From NCBI RefSeq assembly GCF_025837095.1, contig NZ_CP107551.1:2784668-2848667 (forward strand): a DNA stretch of 64,000 bases, written 5' to 3'. Positions 34,153 to 39,271 of this stretch are shown in pieces; within the stretch, counting starts at the first letter, position 1; every line of letters starts with the position of its first letter. The notes beneath the pieces were generated by a model. It was not told the origin of the DNA and did not search any database. It saw only the letters and a list, made by a program, of their open reading frames with translations. Position numbers and translations under genes: made by a program. Source of the stretch: Rhodococcus sp. Z13 (lineage in GTDB: Bacteria; Actinomycetota; Actinomycetes; Mycobacteriales; Mycobacteriaceae).

Positions 34153-34270
34153 GCCCTCCAGTGTTCCAGAGACGCAGGGGGACGAATCCCCCACGAGGCG
34201 CCTACCTCGACATTTCCCGCGATTTCGGTGGAAATGCCGCCCACGATTCGGAATCGTCCGTGTGACGTGG

Positions 34271-34276
34271 CACAAT
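34271..34276 (+). promoter_or_regulatory. -10 element of the nirA-cys operon promoter
   Basis: CACAAT ends 7 nt before the ATG of the cysteine-rich leader ORF (34284), so transcription should start at that ATG and the leader is translated without a 5' UTR. Confidence 0.55.
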
Positions 34277-34283
34277 GGGCCGC

Positions 34284-34394
34284 ATGACAGGATCCGGAGT
34301 GCGACTGGTGGCGCGACGCCACGTCGACTTCAAGCGCGTCTGCGCGTCCTGTTGTCTGCCGTGCGCCGCATGTCTGTGCGCCGACTGTTCGTAG
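34284..34394 (+). CDS. Polycysteine leader peptide of the nirA-cysHDN operon
   Basis: This is a 36-codon leaderless ORF. It begins MTGSGVRLVARRHVDFKR and ends VCASCCLPCAACLCADCS: seven cysteines in the last 17 codons. The in-frame ATG 34275 lies within the -10 and cannot be the start if the promoter is right. The stop is 117 nt before nirA. Polycysteine leaderless ORFs are known in mycobacteria as cysteine-responsive attenuators of sulfur genes: ribosomes stall at Cys codons when Cys-tRNA is scarce and this opens expression of the downstream genes. The VARRHVDFKRV-type segment is also a recurrent feature of actinobacterial sulfur leaders. The peptide itself is probably not functional. Confidence 0.8.
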   Translation: MTGSGVRLVARRHVDFKRVCASCCLPCAACLCADCS

Positions 34395-34404
34395 TCGGCA
34401 CTCT

Positions 34405-34504
34405 CCCGGCATAGTCCAGATCCCTGCCGGGTCGAACCATGCGTGCACGAGGATCAGCCCCCTCCTGCGCCCGTCGACCCGGTTCTCCCCGCGAACATCA
34501 GGAG
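34405..34504 (+). promoter_or_regulatory. Candidate attenuator structures between leader ORF and nirA
   Basis: CCCGGCA (34405-34411) can pair with TGCCGGG (34425-34431), starting 10 nt after the leader stop. Further down CTCCTG (34462-34467) is complementary to CAGGAG (34499-34504), which contains the nirA ribosome binding site. AGGA (34449-34453 region) could compete for the TCCT. A ribosome stalled on the last Cys codons would cover the first hairpin. This layout suits translational attenuation; the pairing is by eye. Confidence 0.45.
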
Positions 34505-34511
34505 CACCTGC

Positions 34512-36230
34512 ATGTCGTCGACCACCGACGCCACTCCCGCCGCCGAGCCGGCCCAGCCCGCACGGCGTGCTGCGCGCCCCGCCAAGCGGCGCGCCGAAGG
34601 ACAGTGGGCCCTCGGCTACCGCGAACCGCTCAACGCCAACGAGCAGACGAAGAAGGACGACAACCCCCTCAACGTCCGCAAGCGTATCGAGAACATCTAC
34701 GCCCACACCGGTTTCGACGGCATCGACAAGGCAGACCTCCGCGGCCGGTTCCGCTGGTGGGGCCTGTACACCCAGCGTGAGCAGGGCTACGACGGCACAT
34801 ACACCGGCGACGAGAACATCGACCTGCTCGAGGCCAAGTACTTCATGATGCGGGTGCGCTGCGACGCCGGCGCCCTGAACCTGGCCCAGCTGCGCACCAT
34901 CGCCGGGATCTCCACCGAGTTCGCCCGCGACACCGCGGATCTGTCCGACCGCGAGAACGTCCAGTACCACTGGATCGAGGTCGAGAACGTCCCGGAGATC
35001 TGGCGCCGGCTCGAGTCCGTCGGTCTGAAGACCACCGAGGCGTGCGGCGACTGCCCGCGTGTCGTGCTCGGTTCGCCGCTCGCCGGCGAGTCGCTCGACG
35101 AGGTCATCGACGGCACCCCGGCGATCGACGAGATCGTGCGCCGCTACATCGGCGACCCTCAGTACTCGAACCTGCCGCGCAAGTTCAAGACCGCCATCTC
35201 CGGTCAGCAGGACGTCGTGCACGAGATCAACGACGTCGCCTTCATCGGTGTCGAGCATCCCGAGCACGGCCCCGGTTTCGACCTGTGGGTCGGCGGCGGC
35301 CTGTCCACCAACCCGATGCTCGCCCAGCGCGTCGGCGCATGGGTGCCGCTCGACGAGGTGCCCGACGTGTGGGAGGCGGTCGTCGCGATCTTCCGCGACT
35401 ACGGCTACCGCCGCCTGCGTTCGAAGGCGCGCCTGAAGTTCCTCGTCAAGGACTGGGGCATCGAGAAGTTCCGCGAGGTCCTCGAGACCGAGTACCTGAA
35501 GCGCCCGCTGATCGACGGCCCCGCGCCGGAGGCCCCGGTGCGGCCCATCGACCACGTCGGGGTGCAGAAGCTGCGCAACGGCCTCAACGCCGTGGGTGTC
35601 GCACCGATCGCCGGCCGTGTGTCGGGCACGATCCTGTCGAAGGTCGCCGACGCCGCCGAGCGGGCCGGTTCGGACCGCATCCGGTTCACGCCGTACCAGA
35701 AGCTGATCGTCCTCGACGTGGCCGACGACAAGGTCGAGCATCTCGTCGCGGAACTCGAGGAGCTGGGACTGCCGGCCTCGCCGTCGCCGTGGCGCAAGAA
35801 CCTGATGGCCTGCACGGGCATCGAGTTCTGCAAGCTGTCGTTCGTCGAGACGCGCAAGCGGTCGCAGTCGCTCGTGCCGGAGCTCGAGGAACGCCTCGCC
35901 GACATCAACGCGCAGCTCGACGTGCCGATCACGGTGAACATCAACGGCTGCCCGAACTCGTGCGCGCGGTCGCAGATCGCCGACATCGGCTTCAAGGGCC
36001 AGCTCGTCGACGACGGTGAGGGCAACCAGGTCGAGGGCTTCCAGGTACACCTCGGCGGCGCGCTCGGTTTCGATGCGAGGTTCGGCCGCAAGCTGCGTCA
36101 GCACAAGGTCTCCAGCGCCGAGCTGGGCGACTATATCGAGCGGGTGGTGCGCAACTTCGTCAAGCAGCGCACCGAGGGCGAGCGGTTCGGCGAGTGGGTC
36201 CTGCGGGCCGAGGAGGCGGACCTGCGATGA
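34512..36230 (+). CDS. nirA: Ferredoxin-dependent sulfite reductase (NirA/SirA)
   Basis: This 572-residue enzyme reduces sulfite to sulfide with six electrons from ferredoxin. The siroheme/[4Fe-4S] cysteines are Cys434 and Cys440 (ACTGIEFCK), Cys480 and Cys484 (NGCPNSCARS). Tyr86 (WWGLYTQR) and Cys178/Cys181 (EACGDCPR) correspond to the region that forms the covalent Tyr-Cys link near the active site in M. tuberculosis NirA. The start is ATG 34512 behind AGGAG. Sulfite reductase is preferred to nitrite reductase because cysH, cysD and cysN follow. The stop overlaps a 17-codon mini-ORF. Confidence 0.94.
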   Translation: MSSTTDATPAAEPAQPARRAARPAKRRAEGQWALGYREPLNANEQTKKDDNPLNVRKRIENIYAHTGFDGIDKADLRGRFRWWGLYTQREQGYDGTYTGDENIDLLEAKYFMMRVRCDAGALNLAQLRTIAGISTEFARDTADLSDRENVQYHWIEVENVPEIWRRLESVGLKTTEACGDCPRVVLGSPLAGESLDEVIDGTPAIDEIVRRYIGDPQYSNLPRKFKTAISGQQDVVHEINDVAFIGVEHPEHGPGFDLWVGGGLSTNPMLAQRVGAWVPLDEVPDVWEAVVAIFRDYGYRRLRSKARLKFLVKDWGIEKFREVLETEYLKRPLIDGPAPEAPVRPIDHVGVQKLRNGLNAVGVAPIAGRVSGTILSKVADAAERAGSDRIRFTPYQKLIVLDVADDKVEHLVAELEELGLPASPSPWRKNLMACTGIEFCKLSFVETRKRSQSLVPELEERLADINAQLDVPITVNINGCPNSCARSQIADIGFKGQLVDDGEGNQVEGFQVHLGGALGFDARFGRKLRQHKVSSAELGDYIERVVRNFVKQRTEGERFGEWVLRAEEADLR

Positions 36231-36280
36231 GCGATTCGGGCAACAGCGACACGATCAGGGAGCAGGAACCGATTCGATGA
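36227..36280 (+). CDS. 17-codon coupling ORF between nirA and cysH
   Basis: ATG 36227 overlaps the nirA stop (ATGA), and its own stop TGA 36278-36280 overlaps the cysH start ATG 36277 (ATGA). The product would be MSDSGNSDTIREQEPIR. A site AGGGAGCAGGA lies within it, 7-15 nt before the cysH ATG. The perfect overlap at both ends suggests a ribosome-delivery link that keeps translation coupled across the gap. Confidence 0.5.
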   Translation: MSDSGNSDTIREQEPIR

Positions 36281-37002
36281 CGATCGACACGAACACCGAC
36301 GAACTTCGACGCATTGCCGCGCAGGGGGCAGCAGAGCTCGAAGGCGCGTCGGCACAGGAGCTCCTGCGGTGGACCGACGAGACGTTCGGTACCGCCACGG
36401 AGCACGGACGCAGCGGGTACGTGGTCGCGTCCAACATGCAGGACGGGGTTCTCGTCCACCTGGCGGCGCAGCAGCGCCCGGGTGTGGACGTGCTGTTCCT
36501 CGACACCGGTTACCACTTCGCCGAGACCCTCGGCACGCGGGACGCGGTGGCGCAGGTGTACGGCGTGAACATCGTCACCGCCGAGGCGGAACAGTCCGTT
36601 GCCGAGCAGGACGCCCTGCTCGGCAAGGATCTGTTCGCCCGCGACCCGAACGAGTGCTGTCGTCTGCGGAAGGTGGTGCCCCTGAAGAACATGCTGAAGG
36701 GGTACCGCGCCTGGGTGACGGGCATTCGCCGCGTGGAGGCACCCACGCGTGCGAATGCCCCGCTCATCTCCTTCGACGAGGCGTTCGGACTCGTGAAGAT
36801 CAATCCGATCGCGGCATGGACCGACGAGGACATGCAGAACTACATCGACGAGCACGGGATCCTCGTCAATCCCCTCGTCGACGAGGGCTATCCGTCCATC
36901 GGATGTGCCCCGTGCACCACCAAACCACTTCCAGGGGCCGATCCGCGCAGTGGACGCTGGGCCGGCCGCGCCAAGACCGAATGCGGGTTGCACGCCTCAT
37001 GA
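36277..37002 (+). CDS. cysH: Adenylyl-sulfate (APS) reductase
   Basis: This 241-residue reductase converts APS to sulfite and AMP with thioredoxin. The iron-sulfur cysteines that mark APS rather than PAPS reductases are present: Cys127-Cys128 (NECCRLRK), Cys210 and Cys213 (GCAPCT). The catalytic Cys236 is in ECGLHAS at the C-terminus. FLDTGYHFAET is the substrate-binding loop. The use of APS agrees with CysN here lacking an APS kinase domain. It is coupled to cysD by ATGA. Confidence 0.95.
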   Translation: MTIDTNTDELRRIAAQGAAELEGASAQELLRWTDETFGTATEHGRSGYVVASNMQDGVLVHLAAQQRPGVDVLFLDTGYHFAETLGTRDAVAQVYGVNIVTAEAEQSVAEQDALLGKDLFARDPNECCRLRKVVPLKNMLKGYRAWVTGIRRVEAPTRANAPLISFDEAFGLVKINPIAAWTDEDMQNYIDEHGILVNPLVDEGYPSIGCAPCTTKPLPGADPRSGRWAGRAKTECGLHAS

Positions 37003-37943
37003 CACTCATCGATTCGAATCCCACCGGAACCCGGACCACCTTGGACGGCAGCAAGTTCGACACGCTCGATGCCCTCGAGTCGGAGGCGATCCACGTCTTC
37101 CGCGAGGTCGCGGGCGAGTTCGAGCGTCCCGTCATCCTCTTCTCGGGTGGCAAGGACTCGACGGTCCTGCTGCACCTGGCGATCAAGGCGTTCTGGCCGG
37201 CGCCGCTGCCGTTCGCGCTGCTGCACGTCGACACCGGGCACAACCTGCCCGAGGTGCTCGAGTTCCGCGACCACGTGGTCGAGAAGTACAACCTGCGCCT
37301 GCACGTCGCGAGCGTCGAGGAGTACCTCGCCGACGGTCGCCTCACCGAGCGTCCCGACGGGATCCGCAATCCGCTGCAGACCGTTCCGCTGCTCGACGCC
37401 ATCTCGGAGAACCGCTTCGACGCGGTCTTCGGCGGCGGCCGCCGCGACGAGGAACGCTCCCGCGCGAAGGAGCGGATCTTCTCGCTGCGCAATGCCTTCG
37501 GCCAGTGGGACCCGAAGCGTCAGCGACCCGAGCTGTGGAATCTCTACAACGGCCGGCACGCACCGGGTGAGCACGTGCGCGTGTTCCCGCTGAGCAACTT
37601 CACCGAGCTCGACATCTGGCGCTACATCGCCCGCGAGAACGTCGAACTGGCGAGCATCTACTACGCCCACGAGCGTCCCGTCTACCGCCGCGACGGCATG
37701 TGGATGACGCCGGGCGTGTGGGGCGGACCGGCCGACGGCGAGGAACTCGAGGTCCGCTCGGTGCGCTACCGCACCGTCGGCGACGGGTCCACCACCGGCG
37801 CGATCCTGTCCGAGGCCGCCACCAACGAGGAGATCCTCGCCGAGGTCGCCGCGTCGCGGCTGACCGAGCGCGGCGCCACCCGCGGCGACGACCGTGTTTC
37901 CGAAGCGGCCATGGAAGACCGCAAGCGAGAGGGCTATTTCTGA
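36999..37943 (+). CDS. cysD: Sulfate adenylyltransferase subunit 2
   Basis: This is a 314-residue N-type ATP-pyrophosphatase that makes APS from sulfate and ATP together with CysN. The PP-loop is LFSGGKDSTVLLHL (about 48-61); FGGGRRDEERSRAKERIFS and the C-terminal RYRTVGDGSTTGA match the family. The start overlaps the cysH stop (ATGA). In M. tuberculosis cysDN is at a separate locus, whereas here it sits between cysH and the chelatase gene. Confidence 0.96.
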   Translation: MTLIDSNPTGTRTTLDGSKFDTLDALESEAIHVFREVAGEFERPVILFSGGKDSTVLLHLAIKAFWPAPLPFALLHVDTGHNLPEVLEFRDHVVEKYNLRLHVASVEEYLADGRLTERPDGIRNPLQTVPLLDAISENRFDAVFGGGRRDEERSRAKERIFSLRNAFGQWDPKRQRPELWNLYNGRHAPGEHVRVFPLSNFTELDIWRYIARENVELASIYYAHERPVYRRDGMWMTPGVWGGPADGEELEVRSVRYRTVGDGSTTGAILSEAATNEEILAEVAASRLTERGATRGDDRVSEAAMEDRKREGYF

Positions 37944-37945
37944 TC

Positions 37946-39271
37946 ATGAGCGACTTCCACGAGCGCACCGACACGCAGCTGCTGCGTCTGGCCACCGCGG
38001 GGTCGGTCGACGACGGCAAGTCCACCCTGGTGGGCCGGCTGCTGTACGACACCAAGTCGGTGCTCGCCGATCAGATCGACGCCGTCACGCGCGCCTCGGT
38101 CGACCGCGGTCTCGACACCCCCGACCTGTCGCTGCTCGTCGACGGCCTGCGCGCCGAGCGGGAGCAGGGCATCACCATCGACGTGGCCTACCGCTACTTC
38201 GCGACGCCGAAGCGCAGCTTCGTGCTGGCCGACACCCCCGGTCACGTCCAGTACACCCGCAACACCGTCTCCGGTGCGTCCACCGCGCAGCTCGTCGTGC
38301 TGCTCGTCGACGCCCGCAAGGGTGTGGTCGCGCAGACCCGCAAGCACGCGGCCGTGCTCGCCCTGCTGGGTGTGCCGAAGCTGGTCCTCGCCGTCAACAA
38401 GATCGACCTCGTCGAGGACCCGGCGACCGTGTTCGCCCAGATCTCCGCGGAGTTCGGGGAGCTGACCTCCTCGCTCGGCTGGGCGCCCGAGGACGTCCAG
38501 GAGATCCCGGTGTCCGCGCTGCACGGCGACAACGTCGCCGTCCGCAGCGAGAACACCCCCTACTACGACGGCCCCACCCTCATCGAGTACCTCGAGTCGG
38601 TGCCGGTGGACGCCGACGTGCACGGCCGTCACGAGACGGGCCTGCGGTTCCCGGTGCAGTACGTCATCCGTCCCCGCACCGCCGAGTACCCCGACTACCG
38701 GGGTTACGCCGGTCAGATCGCGGCCGGCTCGGTGCGGCCCGGCGACGAGGTCGTCGTGCTGCCCTCGGGTGTCCGCACCACCGTCGAGCGCATCGACTCC
38801 CCGGACGGCGAGTTCGACGTCGCCCACGCCGGCCGCTCGGTGACCCTGATCCTCGCCGACGACGTCGACGTCTCGCGCGGCGACATCATCGCGTCGCCGC
38901 AGGACGCCCCGGAGTCGTTGTCGGAGTTCGAGGCCACCGTGTGCTGGCTGGCGGAGAAGCCGCTGCGCCCCGGCGCCCGGCTGCTGCTCAAGCACGGCAC
39001 CCGCGTCACCCAGGCGATCGTGGGCACCATCGAGGAGCGGTTCGACGAGCAGAACCTCACCTCCGTGCCCACCCCGGACAGCATCGAGCTGAACGAGATC
39101 GCGCGGATCACCGTGCGGGTCGCCGAGCCGATCGCCGCAGACGACTACCGCGTCAACCGCCGCTCCGGCAGCTTCCTGCTCATAGATCCGGCCGGGGGCA
39201 ACACCCTCGCCGCGGGTCTGATCGGCAACGGTCTGGCCGCCATCGATCTCGGGGACAGCGTCCCGGCATGA
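37946..39271 (+). CDS. cysN: Sulfate adenylyltransferase subunit 1 (GTPase), without APS kinase domain
   Basis: This is a 441-residue elongation-factor-like GTPase that drives CysD. G1 is GSVDDGKSTLVG (19-30), G2 region REQGITIDVAYRYF, G3 ADTPGHVQYTRN, G4 AVNKIDLV, and beta-barrel domains 2 and 3 follow. In mycobacteria CysN is fused to the APS kinase CysC; here the protein ends after domain 3 and no kinase follows, which fits an APS-reductase pathway. It starts at ATG 37946, 2 bp after cysD, and its stop overlaps the next gene by ATGA. Confidence 0.96.
   Translation: MSDFHERTDTQLLRLATAGSVDDGKSTLVGRLLYDTKSVLADQIDAVTRASVDRGLDTPDLSLLVDGLRAEREQGITIDVAYRYFATPKRSFVLADTPGHVQYTRNTVSGASTAQLVVLLVDARKGVVAQTRKHAAVLALLGVPKLVLAVNKIDLVEDPATVFAQISAEFGELTSSLGWAPEDVQEIPVSALHGDNVAVRSENTPYYDGPTLIEYLESVPVDADVHGRHETGLRFPVQYVIRPRTAEYPDYRGYAGQIAAGSVRPGDEVVVLPSGVRTTVERIDSPDGEFDVAHAGRSVTLILADDVDVSRGDIIASPQDAPESLSEFEATVCWLAEKPLRPGARLLLKHGTRVTQAIVGTIEERFDEQNLTSVPTPDSIELNEIARITVRVAEPIAADDYRVNRRSGSFLLIDPAGGNTLAAGLIGNGLAAIDLGDSVPA

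Follow-up and report, generated by a model that had tools for sequence, protein, structure and literature searches.

The nirA-cysHDN operon in the 64,000-nucleotide stretch of Rhodococcus sp. Z13 DNA analysed here (the window) is preceded by a short cysteine-rich reading frame that most probably (at roughly 0.83) represents a leaderless leader of the Ms4527A type, acting in cis as a ribosome-mediated, cysteine-responsive attenuator. Homology, target gene and conservation together make cysteine-responsive control of nirA-cysHDN the most likely reading. The comparison of loci supports this reading through a conserved peptide, the promoter spacing, a bias toward UGU codons, a hairpin with coordinated changes inside the reading frame and a further hairpin in the spacer. 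Counting against it are a family score below the curated cut-off, the lack of a conserved Shine-Dalgarno (SD) switch in Rhodococcus and Nocardia, and the lack of a terminator in the spacer.

In the mechanism envisaged, the first transcribed nucleotide would be the A of the start codon (AUG, 34284), and ribosomes would load onto the 5' end of the transcript. With Cys-tRNA scarce, a ribosome would pause in the Cys tract, the UGU codons helping and the conserved nascent LVARRHVD block perhaps aiding the pause; folding of the stop region and the spacer would thereby be altered and nirA expression would rise. With ample cysteine the ribosome would run through and expression would be low.

A conserved leader and its predicted promoter

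The leader, its RNA elements and the nirA-cysHDN genes lie on the forward strand of the window, which comes from a genome consisting of a single 4.53 Mb contig. The leader ORF (34284..34394; ORF list and family match) has 36 codons (34284-34391) and a stop at 34392-34394, and its translation is MTGSGVRLVARRHVDFKRVCASCCLPCAACLCADCS. Its presumed sensor, the Cys tract at 34341..34391, holds seven Cys codons (four UGU and three UGC) in the last 17 codons; a hand calculation with a background of 175 Cys in 15,235 codons puts the chance of at least seven at about 5e-10. A gap of 117 nt separates the stop from the nirA ATG at 34512. These coordinates and this gap are as originally predicted, as is the gene order downstream: nirA (34512..36230; a member of the sulfite/nitrite reductase family whose start was set by its SD), cysH (36277..37002), cysD (36999..37943) and cysN (37946..39271), the last three with starts placed by eye. 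The nirA ribosome-binding site, identified from the sequence, is CAGGAG at 34499..34504. The nirA product reaches no NCBIfam equivalog cut-off, and hemW lies upstream of the leader in divergent orientation.

Presence in relatives had been set beforehand as a test of the ORF. Among the best 80 of 572 loci from a NirA search, which come from Rhodococcus, Nocardia and near genera and in which the nearest NirA relatives are those of Rhodococcus gordoniae and Rhodococcus sp. CH91, a homologous leader with an RRHVD core stands upstream of nirA in 79; the exception is L064, where the contig begins 25 nt before the NirA match. The 80 leaders analysed below are that of the window and those of these 79 fetched loci. 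By this comparison the leader ORF is real and conserved, and the idea that it is an accidental, functionless frame is scarcely credible, contradicted as it is by conservation across loci and by selection at the peptide level (below).

The peptide matches the NCBIfam model NF042936 (Ms4527A family Cys-rich leader) over its full length (1-21 of 21, E 8.5e-12), with a score of 44.4 bits, which falls 0.6 short of the curated cut-off (45). The same model is matched at E<=0.001 by all 55 distinct nirA leader peptides. Of 200 genomes sampled within the order, 149 contain a match at this threshold, versus none of 14 control genomes, with the limit that only part of the loci in the 149 genomes were read and not all of them adjoin nirA; leaders of other kinds may account for many of the weaker matches. 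Matches above the cut-off occur in 21 of the 200 genomes, and the window's own genome has none. On the strength of the NF042936 match, the same gene downstream and the same -10 element, the window leader is the rhodococcal counterpart of the known mycobacterial nirA leader, a predicted leaderless polycysteine leader of the Ms4527A type, as the original prediction had held.

The promoter is predicted from an extended -10, TGG-CACAAT, at 34268..34276 (CACAAT 34271-34276), 7 nt before the leader start. The original prediction placed the start of the ORF exactly at the transcription start expected from CACAAT, and this geometry is kept throughout: TGn followed by a -10 hexamer is present in 80 of 80 loci (CACAAT in 70, CAGAAT in 9, CACACT in 1). 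The hexamer precedes the start codon (68 ATG, 12 GTG) by 7 nt in 76 leaders and 6 nt in four, a spacing that is partly a matter of choice, as the start with the -10 geometry was taken where several in-frame starts exist; a suitable start near the -10 exists in every one of the 80 loci, independent of that choice. Leaderless initiation is predicted because a start codon follows the extended -10 by 6-7 nt in every locus. Since a consensus scan of the window region found no -35/-10 promoter pair, the promoter is placed by the extended -10 only.

Further upstream, an inverted repeat ATTTCC-N12-GGAAAT (34212..34235) is centred 60 nt before the leader start and is a candidate operator. Allowing one mismatch, it occurs at a single place in the genome, and a permissive pattern picks up a similar repeat in 72 of 80 loci, its centre lying between -59 and -61. 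The pattern misses L027, L034, L051, L052, L062, L069, L070 and L077; judged by eye, the repeat is truly absent in L051, L052, L062 and L069, and some loci carry a symmetric ATTTACC/GGTAAAT variant.

Other leaders of the wider family are present in the same genome, with 13 matches at E<=1, of which two exceed the cut-off and the weakest are probably due to chance; one match lies at C1:3691398. Six of these leaders were read, and the first genes behind them encode a cysteine dioxygenase (PF05995), a DUF4395 protein followed by a rhodanese, a pyridine nucleotide-disulphide oxidoreductase, a winged-helix regulator (PF00486), an SCO4226-like protein (PF14026) and a protein without a Pfam match. 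The leaders before the cysteine dioxygenase gene, the DUF4395-rhodanese pair and the FprA-like oxidoreductase gene count in favor of the attenuator reading, while genes without an evident sulfur role stand behind two of the six and count against it. The leader-like ORF at L089 (C1:3702906-3705941), MATTQLVRRLAVDLCRLCAHMCCR, lies about 100 nt before the oxidoreductase gene, whose product looks FprA-like and is a possible electron donor for NirA. Two neighbouring RRHVDLCR leaders are found on opposite strands, at C1:424483 (-) and C1:423032 (+); one adjoins the winged-helix regulator gene and the other a gene without a Pfam match.

Conservation of peptide, codons and RNA structure

Eight residues are invariant among the 55 distinct peptides. 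For the LVxRRHVDxxRVC core, 65 distinct 12-codon blocks give a pN/pS of 0.13 (pS 0.46, pN 0.060), and a comparison of 12 blocks of mycobacterial type with 53 of Rhodococcus/Nocardia type gives a pS of 0.60 and a pN of 0.050, the latter being slightly too low as only HVD forms, and no RRHID forms, were included on the mycobacterial side. By this measure the core is selected as a peptide. The mycobacterial-type sets used here and below were taken from 29 loci (L110-L138), 17 with HVD and 12 with RRHID, and comprise 12 loci with RRHVD and nine with RRHID; L120, L124, L135, L136 and L137 carry HVD and were left out as not mycobacterial-type. RRHID replaces RRHVD in the leaders of L110, L111, L116, L117, L119, L121, L125, L126, L132 and L133.

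The number of Cys codons varies among the 80 leaders: one in a single locus, two in 10, three in 38, four in two, five in 16, six in seven and seven in six. Because 11 of the 80 leaders have just one or two, a sensor that counts codons would be thin there. One or two Cys codons accompany an intact LVARRHVD core in L051, L052, L060, L062, L066, L069 and L077.

This combination of a fixed peptide and a variable Cys number raises the possibility, somewhat doubtful at present, that arrest by the nascent peptide contributes, in which case LVARRHVDxxRV in the exit tunnel would stall the ribosome in addition to the Cys codons. The eight invariant residues, set beside one to seven Cys, speak for such an arrest, as does the fact that the block is largely kept in mycobacteria with other codons; however, the V of RRHVD is I in nine of 21 mycobacterial-type loci, and a hairpin in the coding sequence, P1, accounts for part of the codon conservation.

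P1 (34296..34331; GGAGT-CGAC-GTGGC / GCCAC-GTCG-ACTTC) has 14 pairs. Among 63 distinct sequences 94.1% of its cells are paired, compared with 26-59% for slid versions, a comparison that favours P1 as its structure was drawn from the same sequences. Both sides are changed in 35 cells, and none of 500 shuffles reaches the observed paired share, both-side cells or covariation score; the count of pairs changed on both sides (3) is equalled by 208 of 500, however, and that of additional pair types (12) by 212, and related sequences can beat shuffles without any structure. Codon choice agrees with P1: both Arg CGA at position -6 (58 of 61; 3.1 expected from nirA usage) and Val GTG at -4 (70 of 70; 28.7 expected) exceed nirA usage.

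The Cys codons themselves are strongly biased. UGU makes up 174 of 284 Cys codons in 72 distinct leader sequences, whereas the nirA genes belonging to these loci use it for nine of 561 and 33 long ORFs in the window for 20 of 175; at position +11 all 64 Cys are encoded by UGU. A single tRNA-Cys with anticodon GCA reads both UGU and UGC. The six other family leaders of the genome have UGU at 14 of 21 Cys codons and the 21 mycobacterial-type nirA leaders at 60 of 81. As the bias is common to leaders that differ in RNA context, selection for the UGU codon itself is likely.

The spacer holds a conserved stem-loop, hairpin B (34443..34470; GTGCACGAGG-ATCAGCCC-CCTCCTGCGC), which has the loop CAGCCC and holds CTCCTG in its 3' arm; across loci the arms vary in sequence yet stay complementary. 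At a distance of 25-115 nt from nirA, 72 of 80 spacers contain the CAGCCC motif where 11.8 were expected; it is missing in L006, L018, L019, L025, L028, L029, L040 and L070. The perfect stem around it averages 5.51 pairs, while shuffles average 2.63 and none of 200 control means exceeds 3.07, and at least five pairs form in 43 of the 72 (5.9 expected), as counted with ungapped scripts that optimised loop size in data and control alike; several loci bearing CAGCCC have stems of at most three pairs, and in the window the stem has nine pairs with one mismatch and four without. When arms were swapped between 57 distinct loci, the observed mean of 5.21 stood against 3.75 in the controls (highest of 1000, 4.44); for the 22 loci without the Nocardia-type arm the values were 4.14 and 3.18 (highest control 4.09). 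A MAFFT alignment gapped the arms of hairpin B and its 19 loci were picked by best stem, and it was thus not used as evidence. Rfam returned nothing at gathering score in six loci, the chrB-a match of the window (E 3.4) being far below it.

Hairpin B is weaker outside Rhodococcus and Nocardia. Among mycobacterial-type loci, CAGCCC occurs 35-130 nt after the stop in five of 12 with RRHVD (all 12 have ACAGC with C or T as the next base) and anywhere in the spacer in two of nine with RRHID, where the stem-loop is largely absent. By eye, the motif is absent from the 170 nt after the six other family leaders of the genome. Inspection by eye also suggested that the CAGCCC loop might kiss with Cys codons or, in Nocardia, with GCTGA, but these pairings are too short to claim.

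The hairpin CCCGGCA/TGCCGGG of the original prediction (hairpin A, 34405..34431; arms 34405-34411 and 34425-34431) is present at its predicted place, but shuffling the 228-nt region produces some perfect 7-bp hairpin 37.5% of the time, and hairpin A shows no covariation. Alignment across relatives bore out the conservation expected of the peptide but not that expected of the two predicted stems: the 6-bp core CCCGGC/GCCGGG of hairpin A is kept in 10 of 10 sequences of the nearest clade, which is our own grouping, with the seventh pair in three, and the CTCCTG of the other stem is found in six of 80 spacers. A putative hairpin over the leader stop codon (34380..34399; GCCGACT/AGTCGGC) was seen in the minimum free energy (MFE) fold and by inspection. 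Inspection and the MFE fold of the window also yield an alternative helix, A' (34426..34483), which pairs GCCGGGTCGA (34426-34435), overlapping the 3' arm of hairpin A, with TCGACCCGGT (34474-34483), enclosing hairpin B and excluding hairpin A. Its pairing is kept in the nearest clade by one-sided G-U changes only, and its standing as a conserved alternative is suggestive only.

Possible routes from the leader to nirA

The original prediction proposed that CTCCTG (34462-34467) pairs with the CAGGAG of nirA and so hides the ribosome site. Canestrari et al. (2020) reportedly dissected one of the polycysteine leaders, Ms5788A; that study reportedly describes ribosomes that stall in the polycysteine tract and so prevent mRNA structures from sequestering the ribosome site of the gene that follows. 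Applied to the present locus, CTCCTG or another segment would hide the nirA SD and a stalled ribosome would free it. The window itself offers a 7-of-8 pairing, found by inspection, of GGTTCTCC (34481-34488) with GGAGCACC (34501-34508), which would compete with helix A'. Predicted SD openness in the 12 RRHVD mycobacterial-type loci also favors such hiding: it is 0.204 compared with 0.347 in shuffled spacers (0.341 in a repeat), i.e., the SD is more hidden, and a GGCTCC/GGAGCC-like local hairpin is found at the SD.

The Rhodococcus and Nocardia loci point the other way. The CTCCTG-CAGGAG switch finds no support, CTCCTG being confined to the six spacers mentioned above, occurring in 12.6% of shuffles of the 228-nt region and forming part of the 3' arm of hairpin B. 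In 79 Rhodococcus/Nocardia-type loci (L019 left out) the nirA SD is predicted to be slightly more open than in shuffled spacers (0.344 versus 0.299), above all 20 control means (0.275-0.321). Ribosome position gives no opening: over 80 loci, L019 being included with a wrong nirA start, predicted openness averages 0.34 when no ribosome is placed on the leader, 0.35 when one sits at the stop, and 0.32 or 0.34 when it sits at the first or second Cys. A shift from the stop to the first Cys raises the value by more than 0.1 in nine of 80 loci and lowers it by as much in 24. Synonymous recoding of the Cys tract has no effect, either here (0.285 versus 0.276, again without L019) or in the mycobacterial RRHVD loci (0.180 versus 0.162). 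The nine RRHID loci fall within their controls (0.281 versus 0.330; controls 0.242-0.454), and for all 21 mycobacterial-type loci openness is 0.237 versus 0.336 (control means 0.294-0.401). Hiding of the nirA SD thus seems fairly unlikely as the route, and on present evidence the SD-sequestering version is the less likely one in Rhodococcus. Since these values are equilibrium predictions, a kinetic SD switch would still be compatible with them.

A classical transcription attenuator with an intrinsic terminator was rejected: a terminator scan found none in the spacer between leader and nirA, which holds no terminator-like site, and the single such site lies inside the ORF (34334-34347; 0.1 expected). 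A spacer without an intrinsic terminator would suit Rho-dependent premature termination controlled by the ribosome on the leader, as was suggested in 2005 for mycobacterial cys leaders (PMC1262725). However, that paper itself grades its prediction as weak, and a bare Rho-loading site would not need hairpin B, which is conserved near nirA; Rho-dependent termination is therefore judged distinctly unlikely.

The preferred reading remains that of a cysteine-responsive, ribosome-mediated attenuator. It is a more speculative thought, and a rather improbable one, that in Rhodococcus and Nocardia the peptide block, the rare UGU codons, the coding hairpin and the CAGCCC stem-loop (absent from Rfam 15) would together make up a peptide-assisted cysteine switch acting on nirA by some means other than hiding of the SD, instead of a plain codon-counting attenuator.

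Comparison with known systems

The type of leader found here is already known before nirA in mycobacteria. For M. tuberculosis and M. smegmatis, Shell et al. (2015, PMC4633059; Fig. 7C legend) show small ORFs of leaderless mRNAs ahead of nirA/Msmeg_4527; attenuation by such ORFs is reported for M. smegmatis in PMC9031893 and PMC13236596, and six such ORFs of M. tuberculosis are treated as regulatory in PMC9094748. Runs of Cys codons in leaders before mycobacterial cys operons had been noted earlier (Seliverstov 2005, PMC1262725). A literature search for the rhodococcal leader element in a restricted collection returned no paper on it. New here are the selection on the peptide core as against a variable Cys number, the UGU bias, the hairpin in the coding sequence and the CAGCCC stem-loop.

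Among other known systems, the uORFC-8-2 cysS attenuator of Rhodobacterales (PMC8632094) likewise has a Cys-codon uORF as the presumed sensor, but differs in its own apparent intrinsic terminator, its tandem Cys and the dominance of UGC. The cys leaders of Mycobacterium, P. acnes and B. longum, as described in PMC1262725, share Cys-codon runs near the stop and the absence of a conserved terminator; that paper reports no conserved hairpin fit to be a terminator, whereas the nirA spacer has a conserved CAGCCC stem-loop that is also no terminator. The putative cis_reg_atten leader peptides (NF042934) are matched by 47 of 55 nirA leaders at E<=0.001, although with 15.8 bits (E 0.0079) the peptide from the window stays below that model's cut-off (27). 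The Ms5788A polycysteine leader (NF042933) is likewise rich in Cys, but its model is matched by only four of the 55 at the same threshold.

The closest system is the Ms4527A leader (NF042936), which shares nirA downstream, an LVxRRHVDxxRVC-type core followed by Cys, and the same extended -10. The window differs from it in having seven Cys over 17 codons rather than ends of the CSCCCLP type, as in those mycobacterial-type loci that were read. The SD hairpin seen in mycobacterial loci with RRHVD is not found in the Rhodococcus/Nocardia predictions and, by inspection, mycobacterial codons do not form the inner stem of P1. The 12 RRHVD mycobacterial-type loci (L112-L131) also carry another inverted repeat, approximately TTTGCTCAC-GTGAGCGCAAA as judged by eye, at a similar place upstream of the -10. 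The comparison shows that a cysteine leader described from mycobacteria extends to Rhodococcus and Nocardia, its target gene unchanged, and sets apart what is conserved (peptide core, UGU codons and CAGCCC stem-loop) from what varies (Cys number and SD hairpin). It thereby raises the testable question of whether the signal is carried by the peptide, the codon or an RNA element.
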